A DNA stretch of 36,216 bases. Origin: Verrucomicrobiota bacterium (GTDB lineage: Bacteria > Verrucomicrobiota > Kiritimatiellia > UBA8416 > SLMC01). A model generated the notes under the pieces. It saw only the letters and a program-made list of their open reading frames with translations, made no database searches and had not been told where the DNA came from. The DNA is taken from contig JASEHE010000005.1 of NCBI GenBank assembly GCA_030018915.1, forward strand, positions 1-36,216, written 5' to 3'. The position numbers were made by a program, and so were the translations under genes. How positions within the stretch are numbered: the stretch's first letter is position 1; each line of letters begins with the position of its first letter. This document shows, in pieces, positions 5,442 to 27,117 of the stretch.

Positions 5442-7295
5442 TCACATCTTGACCTCGATATCGAGGTCCTTGGCCTTGACCGTGCCGTCCTCTTTCTTTC
5501 CACCCTCGGCGGCTGCCGTGTCGGCCGCGATTTCCTCCGGCTTCTGAAAGGTTGGCAGATAGCGGTAATAAACCTGCAGCATCAGCGCGCACAGGGTCGT
5601 GTCCATCACCAGGCCCCCCTTTCCGTTGTCGACGTCCCAGTAGCCGATGTCAACCATCTTCCCGCTCGGCGCCTGAATCGCCTGTGGAATCACAATCTGC
5701 GCCTTGACCATCGGCACGGAGAACGCCTTGTTCCAGGTCTTCCAACATTCGCCGCCCTCGTGAAACCGCGCCTGGGTGTTGTAGTACCAGCGGTAGACCA
5801 TGCGCCACCTATCGCCCTCAGCAGCGCGATTCCAGTCGAACTGATCGGTTGCCATAAGGTAGGCCAGAGCCCCTTTGGTCTCCGGCGATTTGCCAATCCC
5901 CAGCAACTGGTGGCTTAGAATACCCGCACCTGTCAATCCGTGCTTGCCCGGCCCATCGTATCCGAATCCGCCGCTGGCGCTGTCGCCCTGGAAATTACAT
6001 TTGAACCCTTCGATCGCTTTCTTCATCGCATTGTCGAGGTCCGGGCATTCCACGCCGGCGATCTTTCCGGCCTTCATGGCCTGGGCGGCCCAGCCCATGA
6101 TGGAGGTGTCGTTGCGCGGCGCGCCTGGCGTCAAACTATAGTCGAATCCGCCGCTCGGGTTTTGGCCGGCGATAATCACATCCATGCCCTTCCTGGCCGC
6201 TGCCTTGAGCGACGGCATCCCGATCATACTGAACGCCTCGCACACCGCATACGTGGCAATCAAATGCTCATACTGGACGTTCAGCCACGCCCCATCCTCT
6301 CTTTGGCGCTTCAGCAGCCATTTGATCGCCTTGTCCACAGTAGCCCCGAACTCCGGCGATGCCGGCGTCTCCCCGTGTGCCAGGTATGTCAGTAGCGCCA
6401 GGCCCGTGAGCCCGGCGGGGGCGTCCATCTTGCCGATACCGCCGCCCGACGTGCTGTTCCAGCTCCCGTCGCCCTCCTGGTTCTTCTTCAGCCACCGCAG
6501 CGCCCGCAGCACCGCCCCTTCCGTCACGCCGCTGCCTCCGTGCCGCCCCAGCGCGCTGCCGCGCGCGCCCGGACTGCGGCTTCCGAAGATTCCCTTCATG
6601 ATCACCGGACTCTTGATGATGGCCACGGAGTCCAGCAGCGCCGGCTGCGGGCTGAAGTCCGCGTCCGGCCCAACCGACGTTTCTTTGCTCGTCGAGGGAA
6701 TGAACGTCTCGTTCACCTGCGCGACGTCGGTGGGTTCCGGCGGCTGGATTTCCGGCTCCGGCGGTGGCTCGACTTCCTTGAGTTCCTCCACAACCTTCTC
6801 CTCCCGGATGCTGACCTGCACGGTGGTGTTCTTCGCCGGCGCCAGGGCGACGACAACCGTTGCGATCAGAAGCGCGAGAGAGGGAACGACGATCCCAGCG
6901 GTCGGCGCCCAGAGCCGCAGGACTTGCAGCCTGGCCCACTTGTAGTCGCCCGATTCCTTGGGCTGCCGGATCCCATGCAGAACCTTTCTGACTTTCTCCA
7001 TGAACGACATTTCATCGAACAGCCGGAGCCAGTCCGCTCGCGGCGGCAGGCTATCGGTTTCCAAGGCTTCTACTCGATCAAGCACCGCCGCCTGCGCGTT
7101 GGAAGTCATGAGAAGAGAAGTCGTTGTGCCCTTCAACATCTCGGTGATGGACTGGGAAAATTTGTTGAGTTGGTTGAGTTCAAGGCGGCAGGCGTCGCAG
7201 CCCAGCAAGTGCTCGCGCACCACTTTCCGCATCGCCGCGGGTAGCGATCGATTCGCGTAGTCGAGAAACAACTTCTGATATGTTTTGCAGCGCAT
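5442..7295 (-). CDS. Anti-sigma-like zinc finger fused to membrane segment and squalene-cyclase-like toroid (copy A)
   Basis: 617 aa. Residues 1-40 form a putative zinc-binding anti-sigma finger (zf-HC2 type): C3, H29, C33 and C36 in HLLGCDACRLE. A cytoplasmic linker follows, then one membrane segment at about 131-152. A TonB-like Pro/Glu stretch comes next (EVEPPPEPEIQPPEPTD, about 174-190). From about 255 there are repeats of the prenyltransferase/squalene-oxidase type, such as WLKKNQEGDGSW and WLLKRQREDGAW. No DxDD-TA protonation motif is seen, so cyclase activity is unlikely and the toroid may be a binding domain. The ATG at 7295 has GGAGG 8 nt upstream. The gene lies 55 bp after the ECF sigma gene, the standard place for an anti-sigma factor. 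I infer it holds the sigma at the membrane and senses something outside. The last 507 residues equal those of copy B. Confidence 0.85.
   Translation of the reverse strand: MRCKTYQKLFLDYANRSLPAAMRKVVREHLLGCDACRLELNQLNKFSQSITEMLKGTTTSLLMTSNAQAAVLDRVEALETDSLPPRADWLRLFDEMSFMEKVRKVLHGIRQPKESGDYKWARLQVLRLWAPTAGIVVPSLALLIATVVVALAPAKNTTVQVSIREEKVVEELKEVEPPPEPEIQPPEPTDVAQVNETFIPSTSKETSVGPDADFSPQPALLDSVAIIKSPVIMKGIFGSRSPGARGSALGRHGGSGVTEGAVLRALRWLKKNQEGDGSWNSTSGGGIGKMDAPAGLTGLALLTYLAHGETPASPEFGATVDKAIKWLLKRQREDGAWLNVQYEHLIATYAVCEAFSMIGMPSLKAAARKGMDVIIAGQNPSGGFDYSLTPGAPRNDTSIMGWAAQAMKAGKIAGVECPDLDNAMKKAIEGFKCNFQGDSASGGFGYDGPGKHGLTGAGILSHQLLGIGKSPETKGALAYLMATDQFDWNRAAEGDRWRMVYRWYYNTQARFHEGGECWKTWNKAFSVPMVKAQIVIPQAIQAPSGKMVDIGYWDVDNGKGGLVMDTTLCALMLQVYYRYLPTFQKPEEIAADTAAAEGGKKEDGTVKAKDLDIEVKM
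5444..6968 (-). repeat. 1525-bp direct repeat, copy A
   Basis: This segment matches 10109-11633 without gaps (constant offset of 4665) and, wherever I compared it, base for base. The overlapping reading frames on both strands also translate identically in the two copies, so silent differences are unlikely. It covers the last 507 codons of the copy A gene. One end is one base past the last sense codon, so the stop codons differ (TGA here, TAG in copy B). The other end is in the cytoplasmic juxtamembrane segment, after which the two genes are similar but clearly diverged. Confidence 0.95.
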
Positions 7296-7350: not shown

Positions 7351-7995
7351 TCACTTTTTCTGGAGGGCCCGGCGGAGGTGTTTGACGGCGTAGTGAAGGC
7401 GGGACTTGGCGGTGCCCAGGCTTACCCCAGTCTGCTCGGCAATTTCCGGAACGTTCATGCCGTTGAAATAGTAGAGAATGACCGCGTCGCGGTGCTCGTC
7501 GGACAGCCCGCGCAGCGCCTGCATGAGCGCGGCCGGCGTAGCGTCCGTGTCTGATCCCGAGTCTCGGCCAGCGCTCTCGATCGCCGGCTCCGGCAGGTCG
7601 GCCGCATAGATCAACCGGCTCTGCTTGCGCCGGAAATTGCGGCTCACGTTGATGAGGATGCCGTGAAGCCAGGAGTAGAGCGACGACCGCCCGAGAAAAG
7701 AGCCGGCCGAACGGACGGCTTGGACAAACGTGTCCTGCGCGAGGTCCTGGGCATCCGCCTCGCTGCGGCCACACATCAGGTAGGCCGACCGGAGCAGCCG
7801 GTCGCCGTAGAGAGTCATGACCTCCCGGATGGCGACCGGGTCTCTGCGCTTCAGTCCGTCCGCCAGTTCGGCGTCGCGAGACCGGCTGCCGGGATCTTCC
7901 TCGCCGCCGGGCGCGGCCGAATCGCCGGGCGCCTCCGGCAGCCCGCCCGTTGCGCGCGCCGGATCATTCCCGTCCAAATCGCCGGTTGAGTTCAT
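7351..7995 (-). CDS. ECF-type RNA polymerase sigma factor
   Basis: 214 aa. Region 2 is seen around AYLMCGRSEADAQDLAQDTF and SLYSWLHGILINVSRNFRRK. Region 4 is in LRGLSDEHRDAVILYYFNGM followed by the helix-turn-helix IAEQTGVSLGTAKSRLHYA near the C-terminus. The first 45 residues are acidic and low in complexity. The ATG at 7995 lies inside the mutL 3' end (32-bp overlap), suggesting translational coupling or internal initiation of transcription. The next gene (copy A) begins with an anti-sigma zinc finger, so the pair should form a sigma/anti-sigma switch. Target promoters cannot be read from this window. Confidence 0.93.
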   Translation of the reverse strand: MNSTGDLDGNDPARATGGLPEAPGDSAAPGGEEDPGSRSRDAELADGLKRRDPVAIREVMTLYGDRLLRSAYLMCGRSEADAQDLAQDTFVQAVRSAGSFLGRSSLYSWLHGILINVSRNFRRKQSRLIYAADLPEPAIESAGRDSGSDTDATPAALMQALRGLSDEHRDAVILYYFNGMNVPEIAEQTGVSLGTAKSRLHYAVKHLRRALQKK

Positions 7996-9766
7996 GGAAC
8001 GAAGTGAAAATCAGCGTCGGCCGTCCGTGCGGGCACGTGTAGGGCATTTCCGCGAGCGCCAGGTCCACCACCAGTTTCTCGATTTCCGCGAGGTTCAACT
8101 TGTCGCGCGCCTTGAATGCCGACTTGCAGGCCGCCTGCGCGATCGCTTCCTCCTGCCATCGTCCTTTGCCGCCACGTGGTCCGGCCACTTCCAGGCTGCG
8201 CGCGATCTCGATCAAAATGGCTCGAGCCGAACCCTCCGCCAGACAGGTCGGCAGGGCGTCCACCAGAAACGCGTCTCCGCCGAACTCCGACAGGCCGAAA
8301 CCCATCTCCCGCAGCAGCTCCAGGCGCTTTCGGACGCGTTGCGCGTCCTGTGGCTGGAACTCCACGGTTTCCGGCGTCAACAGCCCCTGCGTCTGCACCC
8401 GCCGCCCTGTCACCTCTGCCATGAATCGCTCGAATAGTACCCGCTCGTGCGCCGCGTGCGGGTCCATCACCACGAAGCCGTCCTCCGTCTCGAGCAGCAC
8501 GTACAGGCCGCCGATCTGGCCGACGACCCGACACCACGACCACGGCGCCGTCGCGCGGCCCGCAACGCCGGTCGCCGCGTCGGGCCCGGCCGAGACCCCA
8601 CCCGTCTCCGGACCGCCAGGCCGCCCCGCAGCCGGGCCTAGCGGCGGCAGCCTTGGATACTGGAATGCGCGCGCCGCCGGCAGGTTCTCGATCGCCAGTT
8701 GGATTTGCGCCGGAGGCTTTGCGCGCGGGACCCCATTCCACGCCTCGGGCCGGATCACGGCCTGCAGCCCCGGCGACCCAAGCGCCAGGCGGATGGCGGC
8801 AACCACCGCATCCCGGACCTCGGAGGGACGCCGGAACCGCACCTCCTTCTTGGTCGGATGCGCGTTGACATCCACCAGCCCGGGGTCTAGGGCCACGAAG
8901 AGGAAGACCGACGGCTGGCGATCCGCGGCCAGCAGCGTGTGGTAGCCCTCACGGATGGCGTAGGCGATCAGGGCGGCCGTGGTGGCGCGGCCGTTCACAA
9001 AGATGAACTGCTCGGTCCGGTCAGACCGGCTCATCGAGGGCAAGCTGACGTGCCCGGAGATTCGGACGTCGCCGGCCTCGTGCCGCAGCGGGCGCAGGTT
9101 GGAGAGATACTCCCGGCCGAACAACTCACGGATGCGGTCCTCCAGGTTACTACCTGCGGCGAGGCGGCAGATTTCGGCTCCGTCCACGCGCAGGCTCATG
9201 CCGCGATCCGGATGCGCCAGGGCCTGCACGATGAACACGCCCCGCAGGTGCGAAAGCTCGGTGGGCTGGGATCGAAGGAACTTGCGCCGGACCGGCACGT
9301 TGAAGAACAGGTCTCTCACTTCCACCGACGCGCCGGCCGGCGCGCCGATGTCCCGCACATCCTGCAGCTTGCCGCCCGTCACACGGATTTCCGTTCCGAC
9401 CGTCTCGCCCCTGGCGCAGGTTATGAGGCGAAAGCGGGACACCGAGGCAATGGCCGCCAGAGCCTCGCCGCGGAAACCGAGCGTAGCAATCCGTTCGATG
9501 TCGTCCACGTCGCGGATTTTGCTCGTGGCGTGGCGCTCGATGGACAAGAGGGCGTCATCCCGACTCATTCCGCTGCCGTTATCCCGCGCGGCCACCAGCT
9601 TGCGGCCGCCTTCGACGATCTCCACGTCAACCTGTGAAGCGCCGGCGTCAATCGCGTTTTCCATGAGTTCCTTGACGACGGAAGCCGGCCGCTCGACCAC
9701 CTCACCGGCGGCGATCTTGTTGACGATGTGGTCGGAAAGCACCAGGATATGCGGCGGCGACACCAT
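7964..9766 (-). CDS. mutL: DNA mismatch repair protein MutL
   Basis: 600 aa from the ATG at 9766, chosen because the family-conserved IVNKIAAGEVVERPASVVKE begins shortly after it. An upstream in-frame start at 9823 would add 19 unlike residues. The N-terminal GHKL ATPase motifs are all present: ELMENAIDAGA, DNGSGM and GFRGEALAAIASV. The C-terminal domain keeps a near-canonical endonuclease motif, DPHA-x2-E-x4-E (Q replaced by P), plus an ACKSAF segment and the CPHGRP zinc-site motif. The protein is therefore probably a nicking MutL that makes the strand break in repair rather than relying on MutH. No mutS is in the window. A TATTCT close upstream is too near the ATG to be scored as a promoter. 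Confidence 0.95.
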   Translation of the reverse strand: MVSPPHILVLSDHIVNKIAAGEVVERPASVVKELMENAIDAGASQVDVEIVEGGRKLVAARDNGSGMSRDDALLSIERHATSKIRDVDDIERIATLGFRGEALAAIASVSRFRLITCARGETVGTEIRVTGGKLQDVRDIGAPAGASVEVRDLFFNVPVRRKFLRSQPTELSHLRGVFIVQALAHPDRGMSLRVDGAEICRLAAGSNLEDRIRELFGREYLSNLRPLRHEAGDVRISGHVSLPSMSRSDRTEQFIFVNGRATTAALIAYAIREGYHTLLAADRQPSVFLFVALDPGLVDVNAHPTKKEVRFRRPSEVRDAVVAAIRLALGSPGLQAVIRPEAWNGVPRAKPPAQIQLAIENLPAARAFQYPRLPPLGPAAGRPGGPETGGVSAGPDAATGVAGRATAPWSWCRVVGQIGGLYVLLETEDGFVVMDPHAAHERVLFERFMAEVTGRRVQTQGLLTPETVEFQPQDAQRVRKRLELLREMGFGLSEFGGDAFLVDALPTCLAEGSARAILIEIARSLEVAGPRGGKGRWQEEAIAQAACKSAFKARDKLNLAEIEKLVVDLALAEMPYTCPHGRPTLIFTSFHELNRRFGRE

Positions 9767-9820
9767 GCTTTCAGAATACCGGCGCAGGGTGGCGAGAAGC
9801 AAGACGCAAAGAGGTTCGGG

Positions 9821-9918
9821 CATGGTTCATGAGTTCACGGTTCACGGTTGAAGAGGTTGACCTTTTCGGCTTCATCTCCGCCAACCTGGAATCTCTGAAC
9901 CTGGAACCGTGAACCATG
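9821..9918. repeat. Inverted GGTTCACGGTT / AACCGTGAACC repeats between copy B and mutL
   Basis: The gap 9767-10106 holds no gene I can support. It contains short repeated GGTTCA/GTTCACGG units at 9824-9849 and their complement at 9905-9918, giving 11-bp perfect arms (9839-9849 with 9905-9915). CATGGTTCA at 9821-9829 is also matched by the right-hand unit. It could form a large hairpin between two minus-strand genes. Similar TTCCAG/GGTTCC-rich tracts occur in other gaps of this window (13817-13837 and 19836-19908). Confidence 0.5.
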
Positions 9919-10106: not shown

Positions 10107-11747
10107 CTACATCTTGACCTCGATATCGAGGTCCTTGGCCTTGACCGTGCCGTCCTCTTTCTTTCCACCCTCGGCGGCTGCCGTGTCGGCCGCGATTTCC
10201 TCCGGCTTCTGAAAGGTTGGCAGATAGCGGTAATAAACCTGCAGCATCAGCGCGCACAGGGTCGTGTCCATCACCAGGCCCCCCTTTCCGTTGTCGACGT
10301 CCCAGTAGCCGATGTCAACCATCTTCCCGCTCGGCGCCTGAATCGCCTGTGGAATCACAATCTGCGCCTTGACCATCGGCACGGAGAACGCCTTGTTCCA
10401 GGTCTTCCAACATTCGCCGCCCTCGTGAAACCGCGCCTGGGTGTTGTAGTACCAGCGGTAGACCATGCGCCACCTATCGCCCTCAGCAGCGCGATTCCAG
10501 TCGAACTGATCGGTTGCCATAAGGTAGGCCAGAGCCCCTTTGGTCTCCGGCGATTTGCCAATCCCCAGCAACTGGTGGCTTAGAATACCCGCACCTGTCA
10601 ATCCGTGCTTGCCCGGCCCATCGTATCCGAATCCGCCGCTGGCGCTGTCGCCCTGGAAATTACATTTGAACCCTTCGATCGCTTTCTTCATCGCATTGTC
10701 GAGGTCCGGGCATTCCACGCCGGCGATCTTTCCGGCCTTCATGGCCTGGGCGGCCCAGCCCATGATGGAGGTGTCGTTGCGCGGCGCGCCTGGCGTCAAA
10801 CTATAGTCGAATCCGCCGCTCGGGTTTTGGCCGGCGATAATCACATCCATGCCCTTCCTGGCCGCTGCCTTGAGCGACGGCATCCCGATCATACTGAACG
10901 CCTCGCACACCGCATACGTGGCAATCAAATGCTCATACTGGACGTTCAGCCACGCCCCATCCTCTCTTTGGCGCTTCAGCAGCCATTTGATCGCCTTGTC
11001 CACAGTAGCCCCGAACTCCGGCGATGCCGGCGTCTCCCCGTGTGCCAGGTATGTCAGTAGCGCCAGGCCCGTGAGCCCGGCGGGGGCGTCCATCTTGCCG
11101 ATACCGCCGCCCGACGTGCTGTTCCAGCTCCCGTCGCCCTCCTGGTTCTTCTTCAGCCACCGCAGCGCCCGCAGCACCGCCCCTTCCGTCACGCCGCTGC
11201 CTCCGTGCCGCCCCAGCGCGCTGCCGCGCGCGCCCGGACTGCGGCTTCCGAAGATTCCCTTCATGATCACCGGACTCTTGATGATGGCCACGGAGTCCAG
11301 CAGCGCCGGCTGCGGGCTGAAGTCCGCGTCCGGCCCAACCGACGTTTCTTTGCTCGTCGAGGGAATGAACGTCTCGTTCACCTGCGCGACGTCGGTGGGT
11401 TCCGGCGGCTGGATTTCCGGCTCCGGCGGTGGCTCGACTTCCTTGAGTTCCTCCACAACCTTCTCCTCCCGGATGCTGACCTGCACGGTGGTGTTCTTCG
11501 CCGGCGCCAGGGCGACGACAACCGTTGCGATCAGAAGCGCGAGAGAGGGAACGACGATCCCAGCGGTCGGCGCCCAGAGCCGCAGGACTTGCAGCCTGGC
11601 CCACTTGTAGTCGCCCGATTCCTTGGGCTGCCGCAAGCCCGCGCGAATCTTCCGCCATCGCTTCCAGAACGGCATCTCCTCGAAGAGTTTCATCATCTCG
11701 TCGAGCGAATTCGACTCAACTATCTGCTGCGGGGTTTCTTCGCTCAT
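10107..11747 (-). CDS. TonB-shaped membrane protein with squalene-cyclase-like toroid (copy B)
   Basis: 546 aa from the ATG at 11747, which has AAAGGA about 7 nt upstream; a longer in-frame start at 11807 adds 20 residues without a clear ribosome site. There is a short cytoplasmic N-terminus (1-50) and one membrane segment (about 60-81). A Glu/Pro-rich periplasmic linker (about 100-120) resembles the spacer of TonB. Then comes an alpha/alpha toroid with prenyltransferase/squalene-oxidase repeats. It lacks the zinc finger of copy A. It is the last gene after exbB-exbD-exbD on the same strand, the position where a TonB would be expected, although 244 bp separate it from exbD. I infer that it receives energy from, or anchors to, the ExbB/D channel. 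No catalytic cyclase motif was seen. Confidence 0.85.
   Translation of the reverse strand: MSEETPQQIVESNSLDEMMKLFEEMPFWKRWRKIRAGLRQPKESGDYKWARLQVLRLWAPTAGIVVPSLALLIATVVVALAPAKNTTVQVSIREEKVVEELKEVEPPPEPEIQPPEPTDVAQVNETFIPSTSKETSVGPDADFSPQPALLDSVAIIKSPVIMKGIFGSRSPGARGSALGRHGGSGVTEGAVLRALRWLKKNQEGDGSWNSTSGGGIGKMDAPAGLTGLALLTYLAHGETPASPEFGATVDKAIKWLLKRQREDGAWLNVQYEHLIATYAVCEAFSMIGMPSLKAAARKGMDVIIAGQNPSGGFDYSLTPGAPRNDTSIMGWAAQAMKAGKIAGVECPDLDNAMKKAIEGFKCNFQGDSASGGFGYDGPGKHGLTGAGILSHQLLGIGKSPETKGALAYLMATDQFDWNRAAEGDRWRMVYRWYYNTQARFHEGGECWKTWNKAFSVPMVKAQIVIPQAIQAPSGKMVDIGYWDVDNGKGGLVMDTTLCALMLQVYYRYLPTFQKPEEIAADTAAAEGGKKEDGTVKAKDLDIEVKM
10109..11633 (-). repeat. 1525-bp direct repeat, copy B
   Basis: Second copy of the segment at 5444-6968, same orientation, separated from the first by 3140 bp that carry mutL and the sigma gene. 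No insertion, deletion or substitution was noticed. The homologous but diverged codons just upstream (LFEEMPFWKRWRKIRAGLR here, LFDEMSFMEKVRKVLHGIR in copy A) show that the two genes were already paralogues when this block was homogenised. Confidence 0.95.
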
Positions 11748-11817
11748 GCCGGCATCCTTTCGTGCTCGCCTCTGTTCATGGGCCTGTGTGGACAAGCTTT
11801 CGCCCACCGGAAGTTTC

Positions 11818-11834
11818 CGTTATTGGTCATAACG
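11818..11834. promoter_or_regulatory. Operator-like palindrome upstream of copy B
   Basis: Perfect 6-bp arms CGTTAT / ATAACG around a 5-nt centre, about 70 bp upstream of the copy B start within the 244-bp gap after exbD. Position and symmetry would suit a regulator site, and the unusually long gap leaves room for a separate promoter. No good -35/-10 pair was found next to it. A C-rich tract sits at about 11896-11920. Confidence 0.25.
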
Positions 11835-11991
11835 TTCCTCGACTTCAAAATTCTTAGGGCCATTGCGCGAATATTCGGCGTCCCTGGTCTCCGCCCGCCC
11901 CCCCGCCCCCCGCGCGTCCGGGAAGGCGCACAAGACCTTGCGAATAAATGAGCTACATCCGGCGCGAGAAGAGAATACCGAGGAACGGCGC

Positions 11992-12390
11992 CTACATGCT
12001 GAACACGGAAAGATTCCGGAGTTCGACCTCCCAGCAGATGTCCAGTACCGTGACGAGTTTCCCGTGCAGGGATTGGCCTGTGCACTTGATCACGACTGGC
12101 GCCTTTTTGTCGTAGGAGGCCAGTTCCCGCAGCCGCGCCTCAAGCTGGTCGCTGGTCATGATGCGGCCGTTCATGCTGAAGCCGGTTTGCAAGTGGCCCA
12201 CGAGAATCTCGATTAGGTTCTCAATCTGTTCCTCACGCTGGTTGGGGTCCGGGGCGGGCCGGGAGATGTCCAGGTGCGAGAAGATGTCCTCCTGTTTTAT
12301 GGTGACAATGAAGAAAATCAGGAGTTGGAAGACGACGTCAATCATCGGCGTCATCATGATCCGAGGCTTTTCTTCCAATCGCCTGGACAT
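11992..12390 (-). CDS. ExbD/TolR-family proton-channel subunit (second)
   Basis: 132 aa. A short cytoplasmic N-terminus is followed by one membrane helix beginning MTPMIDVVFQLLIFFIVT. D18 is the conserved membrane aspartate that carries protons in ExbD/TolR/MotB-like proteins. The remainder is a small periplasmic domain. The start at 12390 lies 36 bp after the previous exbD stop. Two successive ExbD paralogues differ strongly outside the membrane helix, so the channel may be a heteromer or each may serve a different partner. Family assignment is firm; the partner is inferred from the neighbourhood. Confidence 0.93.
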   Translation of the reverse strand: MSRRLEEKPRIMMTPMIDVVFQLLIFFIVTIKQEDIFSHLDISRPAPDPNQREEQIENLIEILVGHLQTGFSMNGRIMTSDQLEARLRELASYDKKAPVVIKCTGQSLHGKLVTVLDICWEVELRNLSVFSM

Positions 12391-12426
12391 ACCCCACCAT
12401 CCTTTCCTTGTCTGGCGAATTTCGGA

Positions 12427-12891
12427 CTACCGTCTGACCATGCCCCCGCCCTTGTCCCCCCGGTGCCGACCGGCCGTTGCCTTGTGTTCCTTGACAGCCA
12501 CGAAATCGAGCCGCCAGATTCCGACGTCCGTGCAGACATCCAGGACCTTGCGCACATCCTGGTGCTTGGCGCGGTAGTCGGCCCGGATCAGCACGGGAAA
12601 CTCCGCCGAGCCGTATCGCTTCCGGCGCGTTGCCAGGATGTTCCGGAGTTGGCTCGCGCCGTGGGTCTTTCCATGGATGCTGATCGCGCCTCGGCGATCC
12701 ACTTCGACAATGAACAACCGCGGGTCCTGGACGTCCTGGATCACCGGCCCGTGCACGGCGTCCTCGAGGATGATGTCTTCGTTTACCTGCTCGTTGAGCT
12801 TGATCGTGACGATGAAGAAGATCATGAGCTGAAACACGACGTCAATCATCGGCGTCATGTTAACCTCGGGATCGTCAAGTTTCTTCCTCAT
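12427..12891 (-). CDS. ExbD/TolR-family proton-channel subunit (first)
   Basis: 154 aa from the ATG at 12891, with GGAGG 4-5 nt upstream. The membrane helix NMTPMIDVVFQLMIFFIVT includes the key aspartate D17. The periplasmic part contains FIVEVDRRGAISIHG and PVLIRADYRAKHQDVRKVLD, the typical ExbD beta-hairpin and helix. The tail from about residue 137 is basic and Gly-rich (GRHRGDKGGG). It sits 43 bp after exbB. With ExbB it should form an inner-membrane channel that converts proton flow into movement or tension on a periplasm-spanning partner. Confidence 0.93.
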   Translation of the reverse strand: MRKKLDDPEVNMTPMIDVVFQLMIFFIVTIKLNEQVNEDIILEDAVHGPVIQDVQDPRLFIVEVDRRGAISIHGKTHGASQLRNILATRRKRYGSAEFPVLIRADYRAKHQDVRKVLDVCTDVGIWRLDFVAVKEHKATAGRHRGDKGGGMVRR

Positions 12892-12934
12892 AACGTCCTC
12901 CCCGCCGGATGCGGGAGTCCGGCAGTCGAGCCGC

Positions 12935-13744
12935 CTACTCCTGGACCACTTCCACGTTGCGCAGGTCCTTGATGAGTTCCATTGTAAGCGCTTCCATCCT
13001 GAGCACGATCTTGTTGGCCATGTTCCGGAAGAAAAAGAACCCGCCGACCGACGGCACGGAAATGATGAGCCCGACAGCCGTGGTATAGAGCGCCTGGCCG
13101 ATAGCCATGGCCAGGTACCCGACATCCACGCTGCCCTTGGAGATTTCCGCGAAGGCCCAGATCATGCCTTGCACGGTGCCGAGAAGACCCAGCATGGGCG
13201 ACACGTTCGACATGACCGAGATCCAGTTGACTCTTTGCATCATCCTCTCGGCCTCGAGGTCCGCCGCCGTGCGAATCGCCTCCTGAATGACGTCGAACCC
13301 TTCCTCCACGTGGCTGAATCCGGCTGTTAAGATGTTGGCCAGCGGCCCGGGGTCGTCTTCGCAATTCTGGAGGGCCTTCACGACATCGCCTTCGCCCATG
13401 GCCTGCGTGACGTTGGACACGAGGGCCGGAGACATGATTCGCCTCTCCTGAATCAGGATATAGCAGTCAACCATGAGGTACACCGCGATGCCGCCCGAAC
13501 CGAACAGCCCGATCCACAGGAGCACGCCCATCACTCCGGAGCCGCCGATGACCGCGAAAAGACCCCAGGACTGCGGCGCTCGCTCCGCAGCAACGGCTTT
13601 TCCGGACTCATCCGCCAGTTGCCCCACGCCACTGGCCCCGGAGGCGGGAGCGGCCGGCGCTTGAGCGGACGCACACATGGCAGCCAACCACAACGACGCG
13701 ATTCCGACAAGCATTGCGATCCCCGCGAACTTAGTCTTCCTCAT
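12935..13744 (-). CDS. ExbB/TolQ/MotA-family proton-channel protein with signal peptide
   Basis: 269 aa from the ATG at 13744. A signal peptide-like start (MRKTKFAGIAMLVG, cleavage possible after ASA at about 25-27) leads to an Ala/Pro-rich stretch. Three membrane helices follow at about 65-95, 182-202 and 213-240. The core signature MSNVSPMLGLLGTVQGMIWAF and the AIGQALYTTAVGLIISVPSV helix are typical of ExbB/TolQ. The extra N-terminal secreted segment is longer than in E. coli TolQ but common in ExbB relatives. It lies 130 bp after the TPR protein and directly precedes two exbD genes. The 13745-13874 gap contains a TTCCAG-rich tract only. Confidence 0.94.
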   Translation of the reverse strand: MRKTKFAGIAMLVGIASLWLAAMCASAQAPAAPASGASGVGQLADESGKAVAAERAPQSWGLFAVIGGSGVMGVLLWIGLFGSGGIAVYLMVDCYILIQERRIMSPALVSNVTQAMGEGDVVKALQNCEDDPGPLANILTAGFSHVEEGFDVIQEAIRTAADLEAERMMQRVNWISVMSNVSPMLGLLGTVQGMIWAFAEISKGSVDVGYLAMAIGQALYTTAVGLIISVPSVGGFFFFRNMANKIVLRMEALTMELIKDLRNVEVVQE

Positions 13745-13874
13745 TGACGATCCTGTCCTTTCTATGTCTCTCGTTTTGGTTGCGGTTGTCAGCATTATGC
13801 GCTTTTCGCTCTTCGCTTTTCCAGGTTCCAGTTTCACGCCGCTTCCGGGCGAAGTTCCGGACGCAGCGCAGAGA

Positions 13875-14705
13875 CTACTCCAATCCTTTGAGGTTTCTAC
13901 TGTAGGAGCTTTCGGGATAATCATTCAATAATTTTCTTTTCCATTTCTCCGCGTGCGAATGCTCGCCGAGTTTCTCATGGGCCTTCATGGCCTTGGCCAA
14001 GGCCTCGGGCTGGGCGTGTTTCACGTCCTGGAACAGCATGATGGTGCGCAGATAGCCGTCAACCAGCGCGTCCTTGGTGTTGCCCGCATCCATCTCGATA
14101 TCGCCGCGCGCAATCTGCGCCATGGCGACCGTGTCCCTGGGCCCGCTCTCGATGGCGTCCAGCAGCGTCTTCTTGAGCCTGACGATCAGGCCCGCCTGCC
14201 GCAAAGCCTGCCAGTAGGTCCGGCAGATTTCTCCCGAACGAATCGCGTCTGGGTTCGAGTCGGCAACCATATCCAGATATTCCACCGCCTCCTTGGGCTT
14301 CTTCATCTTTAGGTAGGCCTCGGCCAGCCACCGCGCTGCCGAGACGTCCCACTTGAGCATGGTGTATTCCTTGACAATGCCCTCCAGAGTCGGGATGGCT
14401 GACGAAGGCGTCCGCTGCGAATACTGAACGGCCGCGTCCAGATTGGCCGGCTTTGGAACATCCAGGCCCTTGACCTGATCCAGCGCAATCTGAATCGTCA
14501 CGCCGCCCGGCATGCCGATGAGGTACTTCTTTTGCGACGGCAGCCATCGAATCGGCGCCAGACCATTGTTGGGAACCCGCTGGCCATTGATCTTGATCAC
14601 GGCGCCGCGGACTTCGGCGCGCGCCGGCGAGGCGCCTAGAAGCAGCGGAGCCAAAATCAACCCGGCTAGGACGGCTCGCCAAGTTATGCGACAGGATGTG
14701 TTCAT
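13875..14705 (-). CDS. Secreted TPR-like repeat protein
   Basis: 276 aa. Signal peptide at 1-31 (MNTSCRITWRAVLAGLILAP, then ASPARA). After a short beta-rich region (VRGAVIKINGQRVPNNG), helical pairs of TPR type follow: AARWLAEAYLKMKKPKEAVEYL, then GDIEMDAGNTKDALVDGYLR, and a C-terminal AEKWKRKLLNDYPESSYSR typical of BamD/YbgF-like TPRs. Its ATG overlaps the stop of the larger TPR gene by 4 bp (ATGA), so translation is coupled. It is likely a periplasmic or outer-membrane-associated scaffold for the ExbB/ExbD machine encoded downstream. No enzymatic motif. Confidence 0.82.
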   Translation of the reverse strand: MNTSCRITWRAVLAGLILAPLLLGASPARAEVRGAVIKINGQRVPNNGLAPIRWLPSQKKYLIGMPGGVTIQIALDQVKGLDVPKPANLDAAVQYSQRTPSSAIPTLEGIVKEYTMLKWDVSAARWLAEAYLKMKKPKEAVEYLDMVADSNPDAIRSGEICRTYWQALRQAGLIVRLKKTLLDAIESGPRDTVAMAQIARGDIEMDAGNTKDALVDGYLRTIMLFQDVKHAQPEALAKAMKAHEKLGEHSHAEKWKRKLLNDYPESSYSRNLKGLE

Positions 14706-17700
14706 GGTTTGTTTTCCTCCGCTGGTTTTGCCAGCGCGGGTTGAGCCAGCGCCCTGGCGGTCGCATCTGGCTTCGGCTCGGCCGGTTTGCCATCGATCTT
14801 TGCCGGTTCGGCGGCCGGCGCGTTCGTGGCGGTTGGCGCCGCCGCGCCGGGCCCTTCCGCGCCCGTCTCCGGCGTCGCCACTGGCTTCCCGGTCGGAGTC
14901 TTCGGCGACTGGTCGGGCGAGATGCCTTCCAGGACCATCTTGGTTTGGGCCTCGCCGCGCCACTTCCGCACGTCGTCCACGTATTTTCCGCCGCTCGCAA
15001 AACTCTCCAAATACTCGTTGCAGCGATCCCAGCCGTCCTTCCACCGCTTGCTCTTCATATGGAGAGGGATCGCCAGATGAAACGCTTCTTCCATGCGCAT
15101 CCGGACTTTCGCGTCCTCCAGGTCGCCCGTGGTGCAGAGCGACCACAACGGCACAATCGCTTTTCCGATCGCCGCCTCGACGCTCTGTGGATCGCCCCAC
15201 TTTTCCTCGGCCTCCACCACGGACAGGAATATCTTGCCGATGGCCAGTTGCGCAAAGGCTTGCTCGCCGGCGGTCTTCATGTAGCGGCGGGCAAAATTGA
15301 CGTTCTTGACCGCCTCGTTGAAAAACTTGATCCGTTTCTCGCGATCCTGTTCCTTGGCGGCCTGCTCGGCGTAGGCGCGGCTCAGGTAGAATGCGGCGTC
15401 CACGATGCTCCTGGACTGCGGGTAGTCCTTCTTGACCGCTTCCAGCGCCTTGACGGCCTCGTCGCCTAGATTGAGCTCGGTCGCGCACTTGCCCTGCCCG
15501 AGCACGGCCAGCTCGTGGGCTGTCGCGCCTTTCTTGGCGTTTTCCACCACTTTGCGGAACGCCTGCAGAGCAATCTCGTGCTCCTTAGCCTCCGCCAGCT
15601 TCAGGCCCGCAATTAGAATCTGCATCTCGTTGTACTGGGCGCCACCGGCCGCAAACATGTCCTTGAACGCCCTGATGGCCTCGTCGCGCATACCGAGCTG
15701 GAGCAGGTTCATGGCGAGGATGAACTTGGAGTTCTTCGCCTCATCGCTCTCCGGGTATTGTTTCTGCAGCTTCTTCAGCGCCTCTTTCGCCTTGTTGGCG
15801 TCTTCGAGGATCGTGTGCAGTGTCCCGAGTTGCGCCAGGGCCGACGGCGCGAAACGGGAGTTGGGGAACTCCTGCGCCAGCCGCGAGTGGCTGGCGATCG
15901 CCATCTGCTTGAGCTCGCCCACCTTGTCCGCCGGCCGGGTCAGCATCGAGTAGCACATGCCCGTGTAGTAGAGCGATCCCTGGAGCATGATCTGGTTGTT
16001 TTCCTTGTCGTCCGGCTTCTGGGAGTTGTGCGGATGAGCGGGATCGCTCAGAATCTTGATTAGGTCGCCGAACCGCTTGATGGCTGTGGCCAGGTGCTTC
16101 TCGCCGGCTTCCTTCTTTGCGTCGTCGCCTTTGCGGACATAATCGGAGCCCAGCGACTCGTAGGCATAGGCCAGGCGGTACATCGAGGCGACCAGGAGCT
16201 GCCCCGGCGCCGTCTCTTTTTTCAGCGACTCGATCAGGGCCAGAAGCGTTTTGGTTTCCTGGATGAACTCCTCCTTCTTGTTGTAGCATTGCGCGATCTT
16301 GCTCAAGGCCGGGTGAAAAACGCGGTTGCCCGTGTAGTTGGTCTGAATCTGGGCGAAATAGGCGAGCGCGCCGTCCATGTTGCCCGCGTCGAAAAGTTGC
16401 CGGCCGAATTCGAAGAGCTTCTCCGGCGCGCGGGGATGACGCGCAAACGACTGGAAGAACGCGCTGTAGGCCACCGCTTTGCGGTCTGCTCGCTTCAGTT
16501 CCTCGCATTTGCCGGCGATCCTCAGCAACTGGTCGCCCGCCTTGACCGACAACGCCTTGTTCTTGTTGAAGCGCTCCGCGACGTATCGGACGATCATGTC
16601 CACGCAACGGTCGTTCATGACCCGGTCGTCTTCGGACACGTTTTCGAGCGCGTTCATTTCAATGTGGCAGGTCGCCAGATCGGCAAAGGCATAAACCGCA
16701 GGTTCGCCTTCAGGGAACATCTTGAGCGCCAGGAAGCATGCCTCGGCCGCATCCTTGTACTGATTCTGGTTCAGCAGGACCCGCGCCTCATGGAACTGGG
16801 CCTTCTCGATCTCGGCCAGTTTCTCCGGCGGAATGGTAAGAGCGATCGTCGCGCCGAGTTCCTCCAGCAATTTCCGGGCTTCTCCCGCCTTTTCCATCGC
16901 ATCCGGCGCCCAGGTCGAACTCGGATAGTTGTAGAAAACGTTCATGAAATGAATGTAGGCGCCGTCGCCACCCTTGCCCTTTTCGTCCTTGTTGGCCAGC
17001 AGATTGAACGCCTTTTCCTTGTCCCCGTCGTTCTTGATAGGAAAGAGTTTCTGGGCTTCCTTCAGCTTCATTTCGCCAAGCAGGTATCGGCATTGAGCCA
17101 GGGGACTGTGCTTGGTGAGGTTGACGCATTGTTTCTGTTCCTCGTGCCGCAGGGCGCCGTCCAACTGCACGATTTGCTCCCAGGAGTTTTCCACCTGAAA
17201 CATGGCCCCTTCCACGTCGTTCTCCATGACTTTCATGTGGGCCATCATGGTCATGGCCTTCCCGAACCACAGGTCGGTCGAAGCGCCGTAAAGGACTTCG
17301 TCCAGCAGTTTCTCGACCTCCCGGAAGATCGCCTTGCGGACGTCCGGCTTGGCCTCCTCGGCGTCCTTGAGCATCAGTTCCGCCGTCTCGGCCATGATTT
17401 GGCGCTTCACGTGCTTCTTGAGCTGAGCCTTGAGTGTCGCACGGTAGGCCTCGATGGCTGCCGCCCGATCCCCCATCAGTATCAGCAGCTGCGCGCACTT
17501 GTACGCGGAATCGCGAAAGAACTTGTTGAGTTCCTTCGGCGGGCCATCCTTGTATTTCCTGAAGAAACCGTCGTACAGGCCTCGCGCTTCCTTGTACTTG
17601 CCCCATGCGTAGTAGCCGTCGGCCAGCGCCAGCTTCATGGCCCAGGCCGCCGCGCTCTCCTGGTCCGCCTCCTGGGCGATGACGCGCTTGACCTCGTCGA

Positions 17701-18031
17701 ACTTACCCAGCGCAATCAGCCCCTGCAGTTGAATCACCTTAAAACGCGGTCCGACGGCGTCGGGATTCAAGCGGCCCAGAACAATCTTGGCGTAGTCGGG
17801 AAGGCCGTTGTTCGTGAGCATCTCGGCATATTTGAGCTCCAACTCGATAACCGCGTCGAGTTCAGCCTCCTTTTCCTTCTCCTCATCGTCACCCTCCGCC
17901 GGAACGGCCTCCTCGGCGACCGGTTCCTCCTCCATCGGACCGGCCTTCGCCGGTCCCTTGACAGCCGCGCCGGCCGGCGCGAAACTCAGGCAAAGGGAAA
18001 ATAGAAACAGGGAAGCCCACTTGGTCGGCAT
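14702..18031 (-). CDS. Large secreted TPR-repeat protein
   Basis: 1109 aa from the ATG at 18031 (AGGGG about 9 nt upstream; an in-frame ATG at 18049 is less likely). Signal peptide of about 25 residues ending APAGAA. A very acidic segment follows (about 35-60), then more than 900 residues of helical repeats with TPR features, for example ALKKLQKQYPESDEAKNSKF and VKKDYPQSRSIVDAAFYLSR. The tail is Pro/Ala/Glu-rich (about 1030-1109). Such YPxS repeats resemble YbgF, BamD and other envelope TPR proteins. It is the first gene of the operon leading through TPR2 and ExbB/ExbD to copy B, behind a good promoter. A periplasmic scaffold or outer-membrane partner is inferred. Confidence 0.85.
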   Translation of the reverse strand: MPTKWASLFLFSLCLSFAPAGAAVKGPAKAGPMEEEPVAEEAVPAEGDDEEKEKEAELDAVIELELKYAEMLTNNGLPDYAKIVLGRLNPDAVGPRFKVIQLQGLIALGKFDEVKRVIAQEADQESAAAWAMKLALADGYYAWGKYKEARGLYDGFFRKYKDGPPKELNKFFRDSAYKCAQLLILMGDRAAAIEAYRATLKAQLKKHVKRQIMAETAELMLKDAEEAKPDVRKAIFREVEKLLDEVLYGASTDLWFGKAMTMMAHMKVMENDVEGAMFQVENSWEQIVQLDGALRHEEQKQCVNLTKHSPLAQCRYLLGEMKLKEAQKLFPIKNDGDKEKAFNLLANKDEKGKGGDGAYIHFMNVFYNYPSSTWAPDAMEKAGEARKLLEELGATIALTIPPEKLAEIEKAQFHEARVLLNQNQYKDAAEACFLALKMFPEGEPAVYAFADLATCHIEMNALENVSEDDRVMNDRCVDMIVRYVAERFNKNKALSVKAGDQLLRIAGKCEELKRADRKAVAYSAFFQSFARHPRAPEKLFEFGRQLFDAGNMDGALAYFAQIQTNYTGNRVFHPALSKIAQCYNKKEEFIQETKTLLALIESLKKETAPGQLLVASMYRLAYAYESLGSDYVRKGDDAKKEAGEKHLATAIKRFGDLIKILSDPAHPHNSQKPDDKENNQIMLQGSLYYTGMCYSMLTRPADKVGELKQMAIASHSRLAQEFPNSRFAPSALAQLGTLHTILEDANKAKEALKKLQKQYPESDEAKNSKFILAMNLLQLGMRDEAIRAFKDMFAAGGAQYNEMQILIAGLKLAEAKEHEIALQAFRKVVENAKKGATAHELAVLGQGKCATELNLGDEAVKALEAVKKDYPQSRSIVDAAFYLSRAYAEQAAKEQDREKRIKFFNEAVKNVNFARRYMKTAGEQAFAQLAIGKIFLSVVEAEEKWGDPQSVEAAIGKAIVPLWSLCTTGDLEDAKVRMRMEEAFHLAIPLHMKSKRWKDGWDRCNEYLESFASGGKYVDDVRKWRGEAQTKMVLEGISPDQSPKTPTGKPVATPETGAEGPGAAAPTATNAPAAEPAKIDGKPAEPKPDATARALAQPALAKPAEENKP

Positions 18032-20976: not shown

Positions 20977-23235
20977 TTAGGAGGGCAAAATCCTGGTCCG
21001 CCAGCCTTTGGATGTGGACGGGCAGTCGCCGGCAGCCGTCTTGGCAGCCGGCGCAAAATCAATCTGCATCTTCTGCAGGTTCACCCGGCTCACCGTTACC
21101 CGGATCGGACTGCCCGGTTCCAAGACCCGGTCGCCCAGCCCGCATATTTCACGCTCCCGCGTGAAATATGCGCCCTTCGGGCCATGATGCGCCCGCCCGG
21201 CGGGCGCAAACGGGGCTAGAAAGACCCGCCGGCGATTGCGGTCAACCCGTGGTCGCTTCCCGATCGCCGAGAATGCCGCGGCCGGAATCAGCCCCTGCGT
21301 CTGCAGAGCCGGCGCCTCGACGAATACGCCGATGCGCATGATCCGAACCACCACCGCGTCGTATGTCTCGGCCTCAGGCGCCCGAATGCGAGCCGCCAAA
21401 TACCGGAACTTCATGTTGTCCACGACAAAGCGTTCCGCCTCCTCCGCGGTCCGCTCGCTTTCCGAACAGGCAAAGGCGACCCGAATCAGTTCCTCCTTTT
21501 CGAGGAGCCGCATCCCAGCGCCCAAATGGGTTGGTGTCGTGGCGCCGGCGGGCAATGAAGCGGCAAGTTGCCGGTGAAGAATCAGGTCCGGATAGCGGCG
21601 GATCGGCGAGGTGAAATGAGAGTAGTATCGCTTCGCCAGGCCGAAATGGCCACTGGCCCTGGCGGAGTACAGCGCGCGCTTCATGCTTCGCAGCGCCAGG
21701 GTCCGCGCGTAGTTGGCCAGTGGGTGTCCGCCGATTGCCTGGAGAAACCGCGCAAGGACTCTGGGTTGCGTGATGTCGCCGGGCGAGAATCCGAGTCGGC
21801 CGAGCGCAAAGGTCAGATCGGCCATTTTTTCTTCCGAAGGCGGTTCGTGGAGACGAGCGATGATCGTGACGCCGCGGTTGACCAGTTCGAGCGCCACGGC
21901 CTCGTTAGCGGCGACCATGCATTCCTCGATCAACTGGTGCGAGAGGTCGTTCTCGATCAGACGGAGGCCGGACACGGTCTGCTTGGAGTCCAGGATGATC
22001 TCCATGTCCGGCGCGTCGAGGTCGAGCGCCCCGCGCTCGAAGCGGCGCCGGCGCAGTTGCTGGGCGAGCGCGCTCAACTGAAGAAGCAACGCGCGCGCCG
22101 GCGTTTCGAGCGATGAGTCGTCCTCGAATGCGCGCGGGCGCGGCGGCGGCGGGACTTCGCTCGCCCCGCCGGCCGGCCGGCGCTTGCCGAGCATGTGGAA
22201 TGCCTGTTCATAGGTCAGGCGGACGCGATTTCTGATGATTGTCTTTGCGAACTCGCGGCGAACAACCCGTCCGTTCGGATCGAACGCAAGGAACACCGAC
22301 AGCGCCAGGCGGTCTTCGCCGGGCCGCAGGCTGCACACGCCGTTGGACAGCGAGGTCGGCAGCATGGGCAGAACCCGGTCCGGCAAGTAGACGCTGTTTC
22401 CGCGGCGCCGCGCCTCCCCGTCGAGGGCGCTTCCGGCCCGGACATAGTGACCGACGTCCGCGATGTGCACGCCGAGCACCCGGTTGCCGGACGAATCGGT
22501 GTCGAGGGACAAGGCGTCGTCGAAATCGCGGGCGCGCTCGGGGTCTATGGTAACGATCAGTTTATCACGCGCGTCCATGCGCGGACCCGGGACATGAACG
22601 AGTTCGAGCGCCTGTTCGGATTCCGCAATGACTTCATCGGAGAAAGTTTCGGCCAGGCCGTAGTGCCGGATGGCGGCAAGCGTCTCTGTCGAAAGCGCGC
22701 CTGCCGGTCCCAGCGCCTCTACGATATCGCCCTGCATGGAAGATGGCGCGCCCGCCCGGTCGGCCGCCGGGATGTGTCGCGCCGTAGCGTCTTCGCGAAG
22801 GCGGACGATCACACGGTCGCCGATACCGGCGCCGCGCGCGTCGGCGACGCGGATTCGCGCGTTGAGAGCGCGGTCCGCTGGCGTCACGAACAGGGCGGCG
22901 CCCTCATGCTGGAGAGTGCCCACACATTCGGCCGGCAGTTCCCTGCGGACGGCCGGTCGCCGATGGGCATGCGCGCGCTGGCCGGCGATACGGCCGCTGT
23001 TCCGCGCTCCGGCGTCGGTAGCGTGGCGCCGCGCCGCAGGCAGCGGCCGATGGTAGCGCTGCATGGTTTGGGCCAGGAGTCCCTCGACGCAAAGCCGTTT
23101 GAGCCAGCCGGTCAGTTTTTTCTTGGGCTTGCCTCTGAGGCTGAAGGCTGCGGCAATCTCGCCGGCCGAATAGGCGCGGTCGCATGCCTGCCGGAACAAG
23201 TCCAGGATCAATTCGCGCGCTTCGTTTTTCTTCAT
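20977..23235 (-). CDS. rnr: Ribonuclease R (RNase II/R family) with an in-frame repeat element
   Basis: 752 aa, a 3'-5' exoribonuclease that degrades structured RNA. A helix-turn-helix-like domain comes first (1-60) and OB-type RNA-binding domains follow. The RNB catalytic domain starts near 220, with TIDPERARDFDDALSL carrying the metal-binding aspartates. A C-terminal S1 domain begins around 630 (YDAVVVRIMRIGVFVE). Inside the S1 domain, residues about 672-699 are encoded by the palindromic element at 21137-21219. They sit where other RNase R proteins go straight into the final strand (LGDRV...VNLQKMQIDF), so the element is a 28-residue insertion that keeps the frame. The gene starts 11 bp after thrC and is the last of the rpoD-rrm-thrC-rnr series. 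Confidence 0.93.
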   Translation of the reverse strand: MKKNEARELILDLFRQACDRAYSAGEIAAAFSLRGKPKKKLTGWLKRLCVEGLLAQTMQRYHRPLPAARRHATDAGARNSGRIAGQRAHAHRRPAVRRELPAECVGTLQHEGAALFVTPADRALNARIRVADARGAGIGDRVIVRLREDATARHIPAADRAGAPSSMQGDIVEALGPAGALSTETLAAIRHYGLAETFSDEVIAESEQALELVHVPGPRMDARDKLIVTIDPERARDFDDALSLDTDSSGNRVLGVHIADVGHYVRAGSALDGEARRRGNSVYLPDRVLPMLPTSLSNGVCSLRPGEDRLALSVFLAFDPNGRVVRREFAKTIIRNRVRLTYEQAFHMLGKRRPAGGASEVPPPPRPRAFEDDSSLETPARALLLQLSALAQQLRRRRFERGALDLDAPDMEIILDSKQTVSGLRLIENDLSHQLIEECMVAANEAVALELVNRGVTIIARLHEPPSEEKMADLTFALGRLGFSPGDITQPRVLARFLQAIGGHPLANYARTLALRSMKRALYSARASGHFGLAKRYYSHFTSPIRRYPDLILHRQLAASLPAGATTPTHLGAGMRLLEKEELIRVAFACSESERTAEEAERFVVDNMKFRYLAARIRAPEAETYDAVVVRIMRIGVFVEAPALQTQGLIPAAAFSAIGKRPRVDRNRRRVFLAPFAPAGRAHHGPKGAYFTREREICGLGDRVLEPGSPIRVTVSRVNLQKMQIDFAPAAKTAAGDCPSTSKGWRTRILPS
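21137..21219 (-). repeat. Palindromic element, copy 1, inside the rnr S1 domain
   Basis: 83 bp, colinear without gaps with 27035-27117. It contains a perfect 14-bp hairpin (21141-21154 with 21159-21172, loop TCCC), a small GCCC/GGGC hairpin, and a perfect 9-bp hairpin (21188-21196 with 21200-21208). Its ends are roughly inverted (AGCCCG and CGGGGCTAG). The rnr frame passes through as APFAPAGRAHHGPKGAYFTR and following residues, with no stop. The arms here are perfect, while those of copy 2 carry changes. Confidence 0.88.
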
Positions 23236-27034: not shown

Positions 27035-27117
27035 AGCCCGCATATTTCACACTCCCGCGTGAAACATGCGCCCTTCGGGCCGCGATGCGCCCGCCCAGCG
27101 CGCACAAACAAAGCTAG
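27035..27117 (-). repeat. Palindromic element, copy 2, in the rpoD leader
   Basis: Same 83-bp element and same orientation as at 21137-21219, with scattered substitutions and no gaps. The first hairpin has 12-bp arms with one mismatch (27039-27050 with 27059-27070). The GC-rich third hairpin is degraded. The end nearest rpoD is 5 bp from the ATG, so the hairpin base stands about 10 nt upstream of the start codon, in the ribosome landing zone. The copy therefore lies within the transcribed leader if the promoter at 27208-27236 is used. Confidence 0.88.

Follow-up and report, generated by a model that had tools for sequence, protein, structure and literature searches.

The window analyzed here, a stretch of 36,216 nucleotides, is an entire contig of a 2.1-Mb metagenome-assembled genome (MAG) of the Verrucomicrobiota, and the MAG consists of 209 contigs. 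On the minus strand, at positions 18031-10107, six genes follow one another: two encode TPR proteins (TPR1 and TPR2), one an ExbB, two ExbDs (ExbD1 and ExbD2), and the last a protein ending in an alpha/alpha toroid, hereafter copy B (Table 1). This is the series given in the preliminary description, and all six genes were found in their places. TPR1 resembles TPR proteins of the YbgF/CpoB and BamD types, and signal-peptide-like N-terminal segments were seen in the sequences of TPR1, TPR2 and ExbB. The ExbB family keeps the threonines of TM2 and TM3 (T250 and T281/T282 in the numbering of the extended ORF), and the aspartate of the TPMID motif is present in both ExbDs. mutL is followed by an ECF sigma factor gene and a second toroid gene, copy A.

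Table 1. Features of the toroid operon and of its surroundings in the window
Feature	Position	Strand	Evidence and remarks
TPR1, large secreted TPR protein	14702..18031	-	Signal peptide; TPR/YfiO matches; NCBIfam tol_pal_ybgF 9e-28; conserved cassette gene 1
TPR2, secreted, small N-terminal region and TPR	13875..14696	-	Pfam TPR_14 1e-7; conserved gene 2, profile A2
ExbB/TolQ-like subunit	12935..13744	-	PF01618 (MotA_ExbB) 1e-23; conserved threonines
ExbD1, ExbD/TolR-like	12427..12891	-	PF02472 9e-22; TPMID aspartate
ExbD2, ExbD/TolR-like	11992..12390	-	PF02472 1e-18; TPMID aspartate
Copy B, putative toroid transducer, 546 aa	10107..11747	-	PF13243 (SQHop_cyclase_C) 2e-10; model and fold search; operon-linked in relatives
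Copy B, long head-to-membrane helix, residues 45-80, membrane part APTAGIVVPSLALLIATVVVAL	11508..11615	-	Model; homologue of the deep members' GPxxSxxxH helix
Copy B, disordered Glu/Pro linker, residues 81-170	11238..11507	-	pLDDT mostly <50
Copy B, alpha/alpha toroid, residues 171-529	10161..11237	-	pLDDT mostly >90; sequence and fold searches
mutL, often found downstream of the cassette	7964..9823	-	Synteny marker, outside the system
ECF sigma factor upstream of copy A	7351..7995	-	NCBIfam sigma70-ECF 1e-22
Copy A, 617 aa, zinc-finger anti-sigma head joined to helix, linker and toroid as in copy B	5442..7295	-	zf-HC2 2e-6; PF13243 2e-10; HxxxCxxC
1,525-bp exact repeat, motor copy	10109..11633	-	1525/1525 identity with 5444-6968
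1,525-bp exact repeat, anti-sigma copy	5444..6968	-	1525/1525 identity with the motor copy

The AlphaFold model of copy B (mean pLDDT 81) places a helical cytoplasmic head at residues 14-38, ahead of the membrane helix, linker and toroid. Thus, the plan read earlier from the sequence, with a short cytoplasmic head, one membrane helix, a Glu/Pro linker and a toroid of the squalene-cyclase fold, is borne out by the model and the fold search. The best solved match of the toroid was squalene-hopene cyclase (2sqc; Z 25.6, 276 aa, 2.8 A), which was also recovered by sequence with an E-value of 4e-17. Copy B shares the fold and the QxxDGSW-type repeat with the C-terminal domain of this enzyme, and the repeat motif occurs in 58 of 64 toroid homologues. 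Copy B differs from the cyclase in being a single toroid with a membrane helix and a disordered linker, encoded in a motor operon, and in having no DxDD(T) motif; the corresponding site reads P-R-N-D-T-S. Just three of the 64 homologues contain DxDDT, so that the absence of the catalytic motif noted in the preliminary description extends to nearly the whole family, and we dropped the cyclase reading for this reason. A thioester-type domain was also considered and rejected, because CGEQ-like motifs were found in none of the 64 homologues. Among the PDB neighbours of the toroid are GH76 and sugar epimerases, but so generic a fold does not allow a glycan ligand to be inferred. Pfam and NCBIfam gave no TonB match for copy B and no TonB_C or TolA_C domain, and no FHA domain was found with Pfam.

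Conservation of the cassette and unlinked toroids

We compared gene neighbourhoods in related genomes and in contigs from Kiritimatiellae, Lentisphaerae and other Verrucomicrobiota; the named close relatives of the window MAG are Kiritimatiellae MAGs. Of 95 related genomes, almost all of which belong to the window's class, 85 have the toroid family; in a sample of 387 genomes from across the phylum, 196 have it. When only full-length distinct toroid proteins with at least 1 kb of upstream sequence were counted (n = 123), an ExbD was located within 3 kb upstream in 87 cases. The full order TPR1-TPR2-ExbB-ExbD-ExbD-toroid could be tested for the toroid proteins with at least 7.5 kb upstream (n = 88) and was found for 66 of them, often with mutL downstream in the relatives. 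The cassette occurs in several classes of the phylum (other-class loci: L267, L275, L277, L280 and L282). Given that dozens of genomes have the same gene order, the operon arrangement is not due to chance.

The association was also seen at the genome level. Over the 95 related genomes, TPR2 and the toroid were both present in 82 and both missing in eight; three genomes, all of them assemblies that are 63-68% complete, had only the toroid, and two had only TPR2 (Fisher p 6e-8, not phylogenetically corrected for the kinship that these genomes share). Toroid homologues therefore do co-occur with ExbB/ExbD and the TPR genes, which was the check proposed together with the preliminary description. 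Two cassettes contain three consecutive ExbD genes (L306:8535-9847 and L310:14037-15443). A full cassette was also found on a contig labelled Neomarinimicrobiota (L166); this label is probably wrong, since the counterpart (G035:C196) is placed in the window's class.

For 33 of the 123 toroid proteins, neither an ExbD nor a sigma factor gene was close by. We examined 15 genomes, picked mainly for such unlinked toroids, and found the TPR2 cassette elsewhere in the genome in all 15. None of the 12 cassettes fetched from unlinked-toroid genomes had a toroid gene after the ExbDs: in 10 of them the next genes were unrelated and no transducer followed, and the other two (L311 and L317) ran into contig ends. 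Cassettes lacking a transducer, accompanied by unlinked toroids, are what would be expected if the toroid protein is the transducer of the cassette and acts in trans. In one genome (G066, 93% complete) the cassette was present and no toroid was detectable, which speaks against this. Three tandem toroid genes, one of them frame-split, were observed in a single-contig genome of another class (L273:6091-11030), with no motor genes nearby.

The membrane helix and the force-transducer reading

The membrane helices of TonB and TolA carry the motif Ser-x3-His-x6-Leu-x3-Ser, in which the Ser and His define motor binding. This motif is absent from the window protein, which reads G-IVV-P at the site. 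In toroid members that do not belong to the window's clade (hereafter deep members), the helix reads GPxxSxxxH; 27 of 40 deep members also have Leu at +11 of Ser-x3-His, and the last Ser of the TonB/TolA motif is not kept. We built a Ser-His helix profile from 40 members with a strict filter against chance S...H matches in the cytoplasmic heads. When this profile was aligned with Escherichia coli TonB, its His met His20 and the strand following the helix met the segment ISVTMVTP, with a score of 23.3 that exceeded those of all 100 composition-matched shuffles (maximum 19.0). The score against TolA was 26.1, with a shuffle maximum of 27.9, and is not separated from chance. The ISVTMVTP segment of TonB lies within the peptide that was co-crystallised with ExbD (PMC10771500).

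The window's clade has Ala or Gly at the Ser position and Pro at the His position, within a flanking pattern that is otherwise kept. The helix profile of this clade matches the Ser-His profile with a probability of 97%, and its direct match to TonB has a probability of about 1%. Hydrophobic strands after the helix were scored in this clade with a loose pattern. Positions 144 and 149 in the first helix of ExbB differ between operons of the Ser-His and Pro types, a difference that is inseparable from ancestry. By these comparisons, the ancestor of the window protein's helix was a motor-binding helix like that of TonB; docking, if any, would take place without the canonical His. As both Ser and His have been lost, TonB-like packing cannot be assumed for it.

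Force transduction is the best reading, in view of the motor-binding helix and strand of TonB/TolA type in the deep members. We consider it likely that the operon as a whole encodes a proton-driven motor, a force transducer with a toroid tip, and a TPR scaffold. The motor would be of the 5:2 type, built from one ExbB/TolQ-like and two different ExbD/TolR-like subunits. The transducer would dock on it by its single inner-membrane helix, and the disordered Glu/Pro linker would span the periplasm, so that the non-catalytic toroid could grip a periplasmic or outer-membrane partner. TPR1 and TPR2, as secreted and constant partners, probably form a scaffold toward the peptidoglycan or the outer membrane. 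Proton flow via ExbB, ExbD1 and ExbD2 may then pull on, or release, what the toroid holds. A role in uptake would be speculation.

Alternatively, the toroid protein could be an enzyme or a binding protein that is anchored in the membrane and merely co-transcribed with the motor, which would drive something else, such as a transducer encoded elsewhere or, directly, the TPR proteins. Toroids of this fold are mostly enzymes (cyclases, GH76 and epimerases), the Ser-His motor-binding residues are gone in the window's clade, and one genome keeps the cassette without a toroid, all of which would fit. However, the near absence of DxDDT and the TonB-like helix with its ExbD-binding strand in the deep members are difficult to reconcile with such an enzyme, and so is the pairing of unlinked toroids with transducer-less cassettes within one genome. 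Moreover, the slot of the toroid gene can be occupied by other tips of the same topology, namely DUF4159 in the cassettes of family f17 and vWA in that of genome G014. We therefore regard mere co-transcription as unlikely.

Two further tip-related arrangements were observed. In the DUF4159-tipped variant (E 3e-30), an FG-GAP repeat protein follows (L268:5855-7465 and L269:10386-11957). In another locus (L282:6897-8240), the toroid gene is directly followed by that of a PA14 protein whose membrane helix is of the SxxxH type, perhaps a second tip on one motor.

Relation to known motor-driven systems

The preliminary description had placed the toroid protein in the position of TonB. However, the same genome encodes a TonB with its own ExbD (contig C44), a TolA-like protein adjoining TolB and Pal (C196), and a TPR-ExbD-ExbD-vWA operon whose transducer has an SxxxH helix (contig C182, L197). 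Because TonB and TolA are both encoded, the toroid system is an addition to TonB and not its replacement. It has the domain plan of TonB and TolA and adjacent ExbB/ExbD genes in common with those systems, and its deep members share the helix motif and the ExbD-binding strand. It differs from them in having no TonB_C or TolA C-terminal domain, and in its two different ExbDs and constant secreted TPR partners.

The closest composition in print is a TPR-TolQ-TolR-TolR cassette of the PVC group with a vWA-tipped, TonB-shaped transducer, published in Molecular Biology and Evolution in 2025; TonB-like docking was predicted for these vWA transducers, and no phenotype was given (PMC12204202). The earlier statement that no system of this composition has been characterised thus needs qualification: a vWA-tipped cassette has been published, though with no experiment, and its text mentions neither squalene, toroid nor prenyltransferase. 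Both the vWA transducers (Tichowtungia family) and the toroid proteins occur in the PVC group and combine one helix, a Pro-rich disordered linker and a globular tip with no relation to TonB_C, with TPR, tolQ-like and two different tolR-like genes upstream. The alpha/alpha toroid tip, the second conserved TPR gene and the anti-sigma twins are the toroid system's own. In addition, the helix of the vWA transducers is predicted to pack on the motor via a conserved His (PMC12204202); the window protein has no such His, Ser-His having been lost in its clade.

A second parallel is the Agl-Glt gliding machinery of Myxococcus xanthus, in which one TolQ-like and two TolR-like proteins (AglR, AglQ and AglS) operate with a TonB-like transducer, GltG, that contains FHA and TonB domains, and with the secreted TPR proteins GltD and GltE (PMC3169522). 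Both systems thus pair a single TolQ-like subunit and two TolR-like ones with secreted TPR proteins. In contrast, the Agl-Glt genes lie in separate clusters together with envelope proteins absent from the toroid operon; there is no toroid, and copy B has neither FHA nor TonB domains.

We found no description of the toroid-tipped form in the open-access literature, and in the literature related to Akkermansia mucin loci no link to ExbB/ExbD or to a toroid was found. The toroid-tipped variant of motor-driven force transducers is real, widely conserved, and undescribed in that literature. It shows that the tips of proton-motor transducers (TonB_C, vWA, DUF4159, toroid and perhaps PA14) are interchangeable on a common chassis. 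This form occurs widely in a major phylum whose members are mostly uncultured and in which motor-driven envelope work is almost unstudied, and the cassette offers a defined gene set for knock-out.

The anti-sigma twin

The N-terminal HxxxCxxC zinc finger of copy A and the adjacent ECF sigma gene are features of a zinc-binding anti-sigma factor. The 1,525-bp repeat shared with copy B begins shortly ahead of the membrane helix and runs as far as the stop codon, so that helix, linker and toroid are all included. In a related genome (G002), we found three sigma/anti-sigma-toroid pairs and one motor-linked copy. The motor and anti-sigma copies of this genome are 51-66% identical in the toroids, 79-91% in the helix region and 95-99% in the linker, with differences at about 50% of the fourfold sites in toroid and helix and at 22-25% in the linker. 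By this pattern, the helix is under selection, the linker is subject to selection and probably to gene conversion, and nothing comparable holds back the divergence of the toroids. Most simply, helix and linker would have a common partner, the motor, and the toroids different ones.

Since copy A and its relatives have helix and linker in common with the motor transducer, the ExbB/ExbD motor could pull on an anti-sigma factor as well. We tentatively propose, as a possibility for which the odds are somewhat against, that the anti-sigma factors are plugged into the motor, and that its pull, together with changes in toroid engagement or load, alters the release of the ECF sigma factor. In FecA-FecR-FecI, the signal is relayed via an outer-membrane receptor. 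If the proposal is true, the load or substrate of an envelope motor would be read directly as gene expression, without a receptor relay of this type. A direct transcriptional readout of motor force is thus made conceivable by the twin anti-sigma factors.

It might further be argued that the system is mainly a signalling device, in which the toroid proteins sense ligands on behalf of ECF sigma factors and the signal is tuned or reset by the motor copy. Copy A, with its identical helix, linker and toroid, does adjoin an ECF sigma gene, and the three further pairs of the related genome conform to this. However, a scan of 166 toroid ORFs yielded just four distinct proteins of the anti-sigma form with a helix and linker like those of copy B, all of them in the window's family, whereas the motor cassette occurs throughout the phylum, and we consider a mainly signalling function quite improbable. 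Even less probable is that the 1,525-bp identity is an assembly artefact and the fusion of anti-sigma head and toroid in the window not real: a long exact repeat with unique flanks in a MAG of so many contigs is a known assembly hazard, but three diverged fusions exist in another genome of the family, the juxtamembrane parts encoded just upstream of the repeat differ between copies A and B yet are homologous, and the stop codons differ.

The window's own genome contains a second, diverged pair of ECF sigma factor and zf-HC2 anti-sigma-toroid protein (489 aa, short linker; L202:8695-11078, contig C158), at which no motor genes were seen. We also observed in the window an 83-nt direct repeat with an internal palindrome-like core (positions 21137-21219 and 27035-27117, 88% identical), which is possibly a dispersed repeat element.
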